The position numbers and the translations under genes were made by a program. 64,000 nt of DNA from the IMG/VR virus record IMGVR_UViG_3300036770_003943, positions 1 to 64,000 of that record, one strand, 5' to 3'. Of the stretch, positions 6,312-38,941 are shown one piece after another (within the stretch, counting starts at the first letter, position 1; each line of letters opens with the position of its first letter). A model generated the notes under the pieces. It was not told the DNA's origin. It did no database searches and saw nothing but the letters and a program-made list of their open reading frames with translations. The stretch is from a virus.

Positions 6312-6977
6312 TTATCTAGCAGTCAGAGCCAATTGTGTTCTATTACGCACACACATATTTTTCATTACCGCACTGACATGAATCTTTACAGTGCTTTCAC
6401 TTATTTTTAACACCGTGGCAATTTGCTTATTACTGAGTCCGCGATTGGCAATAAGATCAAATACCTGCCGTTGCCTATCAGTCAGATGAATTTCGTTTGT
6501 TTTGTTGGGTCTTATTGTATTACCTGACAAATTTTGTATAATATGCTTTGGCCAATAGGATTTCTGTTCCAACAATGTTGTTATAGACTGTTTACCTTCG
6601 TCGATACCATAATCAGACAGCAATGGAAAAAGTCCGTCAACCCCAGATTTTTGCATCTCTTTGATATCAGATATATGCGTGTCTTTACCCACACCAAGAA
6701 CGACCAAAGGCCTTTTATCAACACTGTTGAATTTGAACAAGGTATCCATCATTAACATAAATTCACTTAAAGAACTGTGTTTTTTTACAAAGGTAGAAGA
6801 GATTGCAATGACATCTATGCCAGATTTCAAATAGCTGTTGAGTTCTTTGAAATTCTCACAGTACTTTACTTTCACTGGCCAATCTTCAAAGTCACTTTCT
6901 TTGACATTGTTTTCATCTAAATACTGTCGATAATTTTCACGAAAAATTACTAACCTGGGTTTTTTGTTTGCTGGCAT
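6312..6977 (-). CDS. LuxR-type transcription regulator with receiver-like N-terminus
   Basis: The protein is 221 residues from the ATG at 6977, seven bases after TAAGGAG; an in-frame ATG 45 bases upstream lacks such a site. The C-terminus (about 160-215) is a LuxR/GerE helix-turn-helix: LTDRQRQVFDLIANRG, LSNKQIATVLKISESTVKIH and VSAVMKNM. The N-terminal 120 residues resemble a degenerate response-regulator receiver without the usual acidic pocket, so control by phosphorylation is doubtful. It may regulate phage or host promoters. It lies beside the tmRNA. Confidence 0.8.
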   Translation of the reverse strand: MPANKKPRLVIFRENYRQYLDENNVKESDFEDWPVKVKYCENFKELNSYLKSGIDVIAISSTFVKKHSSLSEFMLMMDTLFKFNSVDKRPLVVLGVGKDTHISDIKEMQKSGVDGLFPLLSDYGIDEGKQSITTLLEQKSYWPKHIIQNLSGNTIRPNKTNEIHLTDRQRQVFDLIANRGLSNKQIATVLKISESTVKIHVSAVMKNMCVRNRTQLALTAR

Positions 6978-7034
6978 AATTAACTCCTTATTAACAATAC
7001 TTAAAGTGTTTAATACTTTCAACTATCCAAACTT

Positions 7035-7176: not shown

Positions 7177-7215
7177 GGTAAGTTTGGTAACAAGGTCTTT
7201 CCTACCCCGTCAGGC

Positions 7216-7260
7216 TTAAGCGGCTAGCTTAACTTCCTGATAAAAATAGTCGTCATTTGC
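7216..7260 (-). other. tmRNA tag reading frame (ANDDYFYQEVKLAA)
   Basis: The resume codon GCA (7260-7258) starts a 14-codon frame ending in TAA (7218-7216). The product begins AND, like most tmRNA tags, and ends LAA, the signal read by ClpXP and ClpAP. It is longer than the common 10-residue proteobacterial tags, with a Tyr/Phe-rich middle. Confidence 0.9.
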
Positions 7261-7293
7261 GTCTATTTAGTTTGCTAGGATTACGTCCTTCGC

Positions 7294-7452
7294 CTATCGC
7301 ATCGTCTGGTCAAATACTGCATCACCTGTCGAACCTAATTCCGGCCCATCATAATCAGTCTGTATCGCCATTGACCCAATCAACTGTCCATATTGCTGCT
7401 TCTTCAGTTTTTGCCAGCAATCTTTTATGAACTCATTGATTTTCTGCCACAT
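7294..7452 (-). CDS. Possible 52-residue ORF starting in the tmRNA intervening segment
   Basis: Directly after the tmRNA CCA end lies TAAGGAG, then an ATG at 7452. The frame stays open 52 codons through the intervening segment and into the coding piece, stopping at TAG 7296-7294. The first 30 residues (MWQKINEFIKDCWQKLKKQQ...) would form a basic amphipathic helix. It may be a real peptide read from the precursor RNA, or only a chance frame beside processing signals. No homologue is recognised. Confidence 0.35.
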   Translation of the reverse strand: MWQKINEFIKDCWQKLKKQQYGQLIGSMAIQTDYDGPELGSTGDAVFDQTMR

Positions 7453-7536
7453 ACAAACTCCTTATGGTGGACCGGGCGGGGAACTGCCCCCCGCGTCCAG
7501 TTAATTCTTCTTATTCCTTCATACGATGATAACAAG

Positions 7537-8229: not shown

Positions 8230-8442
8230 TTATAGAATAGTTGCAATGTCTTGCTCAATGGTCATTTTACCTTCGCAGGCTACGTTCCATTTAACTACCC
8301 CATCTTCTATAGTTTTTTCACCGTACATCGGTACAAAAATTTTAAAATCTTTTACCAAATGTTCTACACCATTTTCAAAAATTCTCCACACATAATCACT
8401 TGAACCATGGTGAGTATTATACCTAATATGATACTTTTTCAT
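8230..8442 (-). CDS. Small conserved-type phage protein, unknown
   Basis: This 70-residue protein overlaps the upstream exported gene by ATGA. It reads MKKYHIRYNTHHGSSDYVWRI..., has no signal peptide and looks like a small alpha/beta fold (WRIFENGVEHLVKDFKI, then VVKWNVACEGKM). Similar short proteins occur in T4-like marine phages; function unknown. Confidence 0.5.
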   Translation of the reverse strand: MKKYHIRYNTHHGSSDYVWRIFENGVEHLVKDFKIFVPMYGEKTIEDGVVKWNVACEGKMTIEQDIATIL

Positions 8443-36838: not shown

Positions 36839-38941
36839 TTAGAATACTTTGTTAAACATTACACCAGCACCAGTAGCAGTATTACCTGCTTGCCCTGCTA
36901 CATTATATTGTCTGGCCAGGTTCACTGTCAATCTTGCGTTTTGATTATTAATCACAGTGTAACCTAATACTAGATCCAAAGGACGAATATCTGATTTCAG
37001 ATTCACAATTTCCTTAGTTACAATAGGATCCGCACTAACTGTACCATCAGCCAATTCAGTAAACTTGTAATCTGTTACTGCGCTCACAGTAGCTGAACCA
37101 TTCTTAATGGCAACCGGACTAACTAAGCTAAGACTAACTTGATCTCGAACACTATCTTTGAATACTATATTGTGATGCGCTATACCAACCTTCCAAGTCT
37201 GGCTAGTAATAGCCCCATTGAATTGGACAAGACTACCACTTAGGTTACTGACCTGCGTAACAGCCAAACCATAATGGCCAAACAAACTTGTATCACCAAA
37301 CTGTCGGGCTAGCCCTAATTGGGCATAACTAGTGCTGCTGTCACCATAGGCTAGACTACCTGCTCCGTGATTACCCAAAAAGCCTGAACGTTCAGACAAG
37401 CCTCCGAGTTGGAAACTCGCTGTAGTTGAACCCATATAGTAATCTACTTGGTTAGCTAAACCGTTATCAGACTTCATTAATTTTACTGAGTAGTCAGAGC
37501 CTGTGGGCAATACAACTTCACTATAGTTATAGGGTGTTAAGGCTAACCAAGCACTGCCGTATTGGTAAGTTTGTAGTTTATTTACAGCAGTAGCTTTAGT
37601 CAAATCAACTGCGTAATGACGCCCAATTTCATCTAAAGTCATTGTATTCTTTAATACATAACTGTTGGATAATCCTGTGTTAACTGAATTTACTGTACCT
37701 GTTCCAGCAATGCTAGAACCTGCTACTAGCCCTTGACTAGGCATGGCCATTTTTAATGTACCTGTTGGCTTAGTTGCCTGGCTGAAGTTGACTAACCCAT
37801 ATCCATAAACTTCATCAACGCCAGGGGCACCTAAATCTGTAGCAGTAGTCTTAACTAGACTGACAATCTGTGCCGCACTAAGTTGTGGCCAAACCTGTTT
37901 GATTAGTGCAACACCCCCACTGACATAGGCAGCGGCCGGACTTGTACCAGAGACATAACTTGTCACACTTCCTGGAATAATCTGGTTTGGAGTTGCGGTG
38001 GGAATATTTTCTCCTGGTGCTACTACGTAAAAATCTTTTACACTGTATTTGTCGGCACAAACTGTGCCTTGTACGTCAGAACAAAAGCCCCCAGCCCGGT
38101 TGCTAAAACTGCTAATTACATTCTTGTTATTCACACTACCTACAATCAGCATCCTGCCTCCTAACATAAGGTTACCTACTGAATCGGTTTTAGTAGCATA
38201 AGCACCCGGATATTGGCTATAAGCCAAGCCTTGGTTGCCTGCCGCGGCAACTATTACCATGGTCTTACTAGCATTGGCAAAATTTGCCAAGTCTTGGGCC
38301 GAGTTACTGTATAAGTCTGTATACGGAGCAGGAGCCTTGTATACTCCTGGAGACATTTTTATTACTCCACGCTGAAACGCAGTGTCATAAGTGGCGCCTA
38401 AACTTAGATTTGCTACAGTAGCACCGTTAGCTTCGGCCCAAGTTAATGCTTGATTGATGCCGTTTGTGCTAATACCATTAGTAACAGGAACCCATTTTTT
38501 CTGGTAATTATTCCAAACTAACCCTTGTGCGACCTGAGCCAGTAATAACTTAGCTCCAGGTGCTACGCCTACCGTTCCAATATTATCCAACTTACCTGCC
38601 GCCACTGCCGCCATCTGCGTTCCATGTGTACTCCAGCTAGCTGTGAAGAAAAGATTTGAACGAAAATTATTTGGATTAAGGCGAGTGTTTTCAGCTACAA
38701 TTTCACTAAAGTTTCTAAATCCTAATACCTGACCTCTAAGGTCATTATGAGTAATATCAAACCCACTGTCTAGTATAGCAATCTTAACACCGGTTCCAGT
38801 AATACCTCGACTCCATGCTTCTGTTACACCGGTTTGGTTTAACACCGATGTGCTTAGTGATTCTTTATTTGCCTGAGCTAGCACACTTTGACTAATTGCC
38901 AAAGCTATCGATACGCTAAGAACTTTTGCTTTAAATTTCAT
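36839..38941 (-). CDS. Secreted subtilase (S8) with outer-membrane barrel-like C-terminus
   Basis: This 700-residue protein begins with a signal peptide (MKFKAKVLSVSIALAISQ, cleavage about residue 23). The subtilase domain (about 30-400) has the full triad Asp58 (ILDSGFD), His106 (THGTQMAAVAAG) and Ser334 (SGTSPAAAYVSGG), with oxyanion Asn236 (AAAGNQG). The last 250 residues alternate polar and hydrophobic residues and end VMFNKVF with terminal Phe, as in outer-membrane barrels and autotransporters. It should be exported by the host Sec system and may stay on the cell surface. AAGGATAATTT precedes the ATG. Confidence 0.88.
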   Translation of the reverse strand: MKFKAKVLSVSIALAISQSVLAQANKESLSTSVLNQTGVTEAWSRGITGTGVKIAILDSGFDITHNDLRGQVLGFRNFSEIVAENTRLNPNNFRSNLFFTASWSTHGTQMAAVAAGKLDNIGTVGVAPGAKLLLAQVAQGLVWNNYQKKWVPVTNGISTNGINQALTWAEANGATVANLSLGATYDTAFQRGVIKMSPGVYKAPAPYTDLYSNSAQDLANFANASKTMVIVAAAGNQGLAYSQYPGAYATKTDSVGNLMLGGRMLIVGSVNNKNVISSFSNRAGGFCSDVQGTVCADKYSVKDFYVVAPGENIPTATPNQIIPGSVTSYVSGTSPAAAYVSGGVALIKQVWPQLSAAQIVSLVKTTATDLGAPGVDEVYGYGLVNFSQATKPTGTLKMAMPSQGLVAGSSIAGTGTVNSVNTGLSNSYVLKNTMTLDEIGRHYAVDLTKATAVNKLQTYQYGSAWLALTPYNYSEVVLPTGSDYSVKLMKSDNGLANQVDYYMGSTTASFQLGGLSERSGFLGNHGAGSLAYGDSSTSYAQLGLARQFGDTSLFGHYGLAVTQVSNLSGSLVQFNGAITSQTWKVGIAHHNIVFKDSVRDQVSLSLVSPVAIKNGSATVSAVTDYKFTELADGTVSADPIVTKEIVNLKSDIRPLDLVLGYTVINNQNARLTVNLARQYNVAGQAGNTATGAGVMFNKVF

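Follow-up and report, generated by a model that had tools for sequence, protein, structure and literature searches.

A circularly permuted, two-piece tmRNA gene in a jumbo myovirus genome, with parts apparently shuffled between related phages

The tmRNA locus and its anatomy

The window analysed here (WIN) comprises the first 64,000 bases of the IMG/VR record IMGVR_UViG_3300036770_003943 (G000; 231,776 bases). The record is that of a myovirus, as identified by its tail sheath and terminase (PHROGs). Its terminase is most similar to those of the PA5oct group of Pseudomonas jumbo phages (54%), followed by those of Sinorhizobium phage Phosso and Agrobacterium phage Atu_ph07 (about 50-51%). In two relatives, at G006:C1:55596-58676 and G051:C1:216551-219554, the large terminase was matched in two pieces approximately 1.5 kb apart, as if these genes were interrupted by an intron or intein.

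A check of the minus strand with Rfam covariance models revealed a match to tmRNA_permuted (RF04321) at positions 7528-7216, with a score far above chance (108.7 bits, gathering cut-off 47, E 2.9e-20). The alpha_tmRNA model (RF01849), the best of its clan, matched positions 7574-7174 with 68.8 bits (gathering cut-off 50). Together with covariation in 20 relatives and a retained tag frame, both described below, these matches strongly support the original prediction that a phage-encoded, circularly permuted two-piece tmRNA lies at this site. L198, a close relative, scored best with the beta_tmRNA model (91.8 bits); thus, the alpha or beta sub-type is an unsafe marker of lineage or host in this group. 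ARAGORN missed the gene, reporting no tmRNA in the window, and annotation with ARAGORN only would therefore overlook it. A DNA search across phage records returned no relative. The mitochondrial-type tmRNA model had no match in this genome, an uninformative result given that it matched nowhere at all.

Directly downstream of the tmRNA gene, a LuxR-type (GerE) DNA-binding regulator is encoded on the minus strand (6312-7022), with a 28% identical relative in L082/L084. The window also encodes a 700-aa protein with a subtilase (Peptidase_S8) domain (36839-38941, minus strand, 138.9 bits).

The anatomy of the gene was read from the sequence and then checked by script (Table 1). The acceptor piece, with its encoded CCA, lies upstream of the mRNA piece, and the intervening segment lies between the two. 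Of the predicted parts, the acceptor strands with CCA, the intervening segment, a seven-pair stem with G3-U70, the tag, the P2 helix and the terminator were found in place, and the predicted ends at 7465 and 7347 are exact. The end of the gene, previously placed at 7177, has to be moved, since the terminator stem sits beyond it. RNase P would be expected to generate the 5' end of the mRNA piece at 7347, and AATTAGGTTCGACAGG comes directly after the acceptor 5' strand GGGCCGG. The T loop is without the canonical UUCRA. Such a loop on a six-pair T stem is unusual, though relatives share it; the T arm of the window is also present in L095, L097, L098, L100, L101, L102 and L104.

Table 1. Features of the tmRNA locus in window coordinates, listed in the direction of the minus strand
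Feature	Position	Strand	Basis
Weak sigma-70-like promoter candidate, TTTACA-16-TATCAT	7553-7526	-	Site number no higher than in shuffles
Acceptor piece with putative 5' end, forming the 3' half of the tRNA-like domain (P2 and acceptor 3' strands, T arm, CCA)	7465-7528	-	RF04321 match begins at 7528
P2 helix 5' strand CATCGT, acceptor piece	7528-7523	-	Perfect pairing with 7305-7300; covariation among relatives
T arm, six-pair stem GCGGGG/CCCCGC, loop GGCAGTT	7494-7476	-	Read from sequence
Acceptor stem 3' strand CCGGTCC, U70 at 7471	7475-7469	-	Script dissection
Discriminator A	7468	-	Sequence reading and script
Encoded CCA closing the acceptor piece	7467-7465	-	Sequence reading and script
Intervening segment of 117 nt, predicted to be excised	7464-7348	-	Closing stem, fold energy
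Open frame of 52 codons, ATG five bases after AAGGAG, from intervening segment into mRNA piece	7452-7294	-	Sequence
Acceptor stem 5' strand GGGCCGG, G3 at 7345	7347-7341	-	7/7 pairs with 7475-7469
P2 helix 3' strand ACGATG, mRNA piece	7305-7300	-	Covariation
Tag frame ANDDYFYQEVKLAA, resume codon GCA at 7260-7258	7260-7219	-	Script dissection
Stop codon TAA of tag	7218-7216	-	Sequence reading and script
Intrinsic rho-independent terminator AAGGGCAC-TTAG-GTGCCCTT, then T run	7176-7157	-	1 found versus 0.4 expected

Covariation, tags and intervening segments in related phages

Relatives were collected with the same Rfam model, which scored over its cut-off in 13 of 50 and a further 13 of 50 IMG/VR records; this total of 26 in 100 is not a frequency, as the records were reached via similarity of the terminase or a neighbour gene or via the tmRNA's own motif. 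A total of 21 phage tmRNA genes, that of the window and 20 relatives, were dissected. All seven acceptor pairs are formed in each of the 21 genes, which between them have nine distinct acceptor stems. At pairs 4 to 7, both partners vary: pair 4 occurs as C-G, G-C or U-A, pair 5 as C-G, G-C or A-U and pair 6 in four versions. Pairs 1 and 2 and G3-U70, by contrast, are invariant throughout. Similarly, the inter-piece P2 helix, the presence of which had been predicted, covaries in the relatives. All six of its pairs are formed with the gene's own partner in 13 of 17 genes, compared with 21% after partners were swapped between phages.

These observations bear on whether the locus is merely what is left, without function, of an ssrA gene captured from a host. 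Pieces of ssrA derived from integration sites are frequent in phages (PMC9004378), but in this case the anatomy is intact, the relatives show compensatory changes, and the gene is syntenically retained across phages at 56-84% terminase identity. In addition, the string GGGCCGG...TTCGACAGG is absent from 84,980 species genomes. A remnant is scarcely credible on this evidence and, given the covariation, already largely refuted.

The tag of the window, ANDDYFYQEVKLAA, ends in an ordinary LAA. Across the 21 genes, the tags open with AND or a similar sequence, and most close with AA after a hydrophobic residue, the ends in relatives being mostly LAA, VAA or MAA; ANDDYFIQDLKLAA (L198) and ANDDYFGEVRLAA (L096) are related tags. 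Five synonymous codon differences and one gap of a whole codon separate the tag frames of the window and L096. The earlier suggestion that the tag has an altered protease fate found no support, as its LAA end is like that of most relatives. The tags of L095 and L104/L105 are unusually long, at 27 and 28 residues (ANDTAFDFGALAFTGNTVRGARVAVAA and ATASTKGSFKFSGKGVKLASARREAVMA, respectively), and the latter ends in VMA and not AA.

The tags are also relevant to a reading in which the two-piece RNA acts as a decoy or competitor, dampening trans-translation by the host or sparing phage proteins from degradation. The atypical T arm would suit such a role, and a precedent is cited in PMC11915505, in which a tag-less tRNA-like RNA of phage DS6A inhibited endogenous tmRNA in E. 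coli. However, the RNA in the window has kept a full tag frame, resume codon and stop, and the tags of relatives keep their coding features and hydrophobic-AA ends, all of which would be needless in a decoy. We therefore consider this role very unlikely and favour a tmRNA that works by tagging.

The intervening segment folds at -34.7 kcal/mol (z -3.87), better than all of 200 shuffles. Its closing stem consists of AGTTTGTAT/ATACAGACT and of CATAA/TTATG, the first strand of the latter starting within the CCA. A closing stem is present in nearly all relatives despite sequence change, for example CATAAGCACT/AGTGCTTATG in L202 and CAAAAGCACATA/TATGTGTGCTTTTG in L198. The segment of the window had no match beyond background to those of the compared relatives. 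L103 (G045:C1, a 342-kb phage) has an intervening segment in which TACAGGTTCAAATCCTGTA resembles the T arm of a tRNA and is closed by CACACTTT/AAAGTGTG, with the look of a tRNA that has decayed within the tmRNA precursor; neither ARAGORN nor Rfam makes a tRNA call in this segment.

The 52-codon frame in the intervening segment raises the possibility of a second job for the precursor, namely translation of a small gene before processing. Its Shine-Dalgarno (SD) sequence AAGGAG and start codon lie within the closing stem, and translation would thus be switched off once the RNA folds and is processed; such a job would be compatible with a functional tmRNA. The SD and start codon are well spaced, a 61-codon frame is arranged in the same way in L102, a second phage, and L100 has a hydrophobic 37-codon frame at the same place. 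SD-led frames occur in two of the 21 segments against 0.35 expected from shuffles, for which the Poisson chance is about 5%. However, the 52-aa product has no homologue in phages (a weak match only, E 0.4) or viral contigs, and no phage homologue was found for that of the L102 segment. Further, the segments of L198, L200 and L207, the closest relatives, are plain hairpins without such a frame, and the likeness between the frames of the window and L102 is mostly within the tmRNA part. The frame was also a post hoc find. The lack of a homologue, the absence from the closest relatives, the position of the SD and start inside the closing stem and a chance of about 5% together suggest that the frame is probably fortuitous, and a translated small gene is thus regarded as improbable.

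Proposed working and control

In tmRNA biology, the RNA is matured by RNase P and 3' trimming, alanylated through G3-U70 and delivered by SmpB and EF-Tu, after which translation resumes on the tag frame and ClpXP recognises the tagged product. SmpB (PF01668) had no match in the 231,776-base record, which may be incomplete, and neither did ClpP or release-factor/ArfB domains; controls were matched in these searches. Likewise, no tRNA was found in this possibly incomplete record, again with controls matched, though it is of jumbo size. The host's partners would therefore be used. Apart from the tmRNA, no tRNA-like gene was detected in the 232-kb record; the tmRNA thus looks to have been kept for ribosome rescue itself and not within a set of tRNAs. 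In the relative L102, a tRNA with anticodon CTA lies approximately 0.75 kb from the tmRNA (L102:676-750, minus strand). It was called tRNA-Pyl by ARAGORN and a tRNA by Rfam (51.3 bits), and is possibly an amber-suppressor tRNA of that phage.

Judged from its sequence features, the region 7528-7157 (minus strand) is very probably a functional ssrA gene of the circularly permuted type, encoded in the genome of a jumbo myovirus. We infer from these features how it would be transcribed, processed, charged and used. One precursor RNA would be made from the locus; host RNase P would cut it at 7347 and host 3' processing would expose the CCA at 7465, the hairpin-closed intervening segment being discarded. 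The two pieces would be held together by acceptor and P2 pairing and charged by host alanyl-tRNA synthetase via G3-U70, assuming that they fit the host enzyme. Host SmpB, a fit to which is likewise assumed, and EF-Tu would then bring the tmRNA to ribosomes stalled on truncated mRNA, where translation would resume at GCA and add ANDDYFYQEVKLAA. Host ClpXP should recognise this tag, again on the assumption of a fit. The phage may benefit in that ribosomes stay free during mRNA degradation in infection.

The original prediction also placed a late promoter at the 5' end and the tmRNA under late control. In the window, the T4-type motif TATAAATA is rarer than chance (3 versus 9.5 expected), with all copies on the plus strand and none on the tmRNA strand, and AATAAATAC is at chance level (twice versus 1.96 expected). 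The sigma-70-like candidate TTTACA-16-TATCAT, the only promoter-like site at the 5' end, would start transcription inside P2 and has a -10 that overlaps the P2 strand, and thus it may not be the real promoter. Several relatives (L104, L200, L201 and L207) have TTGACA and TATAAT or TATACT about 17 bases apart before the gene. With such sites in relatives and TATAAATA depleted, neither the late promoter nor late control is supported.

Mosaic evolution and known systems

The tRNA-like and tag parts of the gene have different nearest relatives. Among the syntenic neighbours, G001/G003 (L096/L099) have the tmRNA directly after a 67% homologue of window 8230-8442, and in G060 (L198), the neighbour protein is 79% identical to that of the window. 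From P2 to the tag, the genes of these phages share 78-83% identity with that of the window, falling to 70-71% over the acceptor piece. The opposite pattern was seen in L098 and L102, with 97% identity to the window for the acceptor piece, 90% for the initial 42 bases of the mRNA piece and 69-72% for the tag part. The closest phages by terminase, G094 (84%) and G098 (83%), have other tmRNA versions again, with the tags ANDSQFALAA and ANDSQYLVAANA. Synteny around the locus was seen with G001/G003 and G094.

By these comparisons the gene is a mosaic. Judged from identities only, the pattern is best read as exchange of parts within the phage gene pool, since selection on the tRNA-like part alone would not lower its likeness in syntenic relatives. 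A broader proposal is that the gene is a recombining cassette of the jumbo-phage clade with three parts, the tRNA-like part, the intervening segment and the tag part, in which the intervening segment would serve as a cargo site, holding a small translated gene or a tRNA in some phages, to give a dual-function precursor. We consider this extension unlikely.

A bacterial source was also considered for the T arm, the 24-mer of which occurs in six species genomes, and was rejected. All six carry it in ordinary one-piece tmRNAs and are Bacillota/Firmicutes or Melainabacteria/Caenarcanales MAGs; the likeness is probably convergent and gives no clue to the host.

The novelty implied by the original prediction is not supported, as two-piece phage tmRNAs have already been published (PMC9004378, 2022). 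That study described a two-piece tmRNA in Methylophilales phage Melnitz and in other marine or aquatic phages, and listed 402 phages, 133 unique tmRNA structures and 53 two-piece forms by ARAGORN, of which 50 were marine or aquatic. The tmRNA of Melnitz is likewise phage-encoded, permuted and of alphaproteobacterial type with a full tag. In contrast to the present case, it lies in a 141.5-kb genome with a glutamine riboswitch and is reported behind an early promoter (PMC9004378), and its tag and tRNA-like part differ; no riboswitch was found here by Rfam. A current database holds 79 unique phage tmRNA sequences, and RF04321 was built in the same work (PMC11915505). Phage DS6A, a mycobacteriophage cited there, also encodes a tmRNA-type RNA; this RNA is without a tag frame and inhibits, whereas that of the window has a complete tag. 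Bacterial members of RF04321 and RF01849 (e.g. of Caulobacter) have the same gene order, acceptor stem with G3-U70, CCA, intervening segment and tag, and their T loop, GGCAGU, is also without UUCRA. They differ in having ATCGACG after the acceptor strand, where the window has TTCGACAGG, and the present gene is set apart by its six-pair T stem, long 117-nt intervening segment and modest alpha score of 68.8 bits. PMC7162821 reports tmRNA and SmpB in huge phages; the passages considered there deal neither with the permuted form nor with module exchange. These phages share with the present phage a ribosome-rescue gene in a genome of more than 200 kb, whereas no smpB was found in this record, which may be incomplete.

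The gene in the window is thus of a known kind, and a well-supported further example whose parts have apparently been exchanged among related phages. Of 84,980 bacterial and archaeal species genomes, none contains GGGCCGGAAWYAGGTTCGACAGG, whereas 13 viral stretches do. The finding adds a well-resolved phage tmRNA family, spread over several related jumbo phages, with an acceptor/D-loop string found in no sampled bacterial species. In the permuted order, both tRNA-like halves are adjacent to each other and apart from the tag, which may be what allows phages to exchange the tRNA-like domain and the tag independently.
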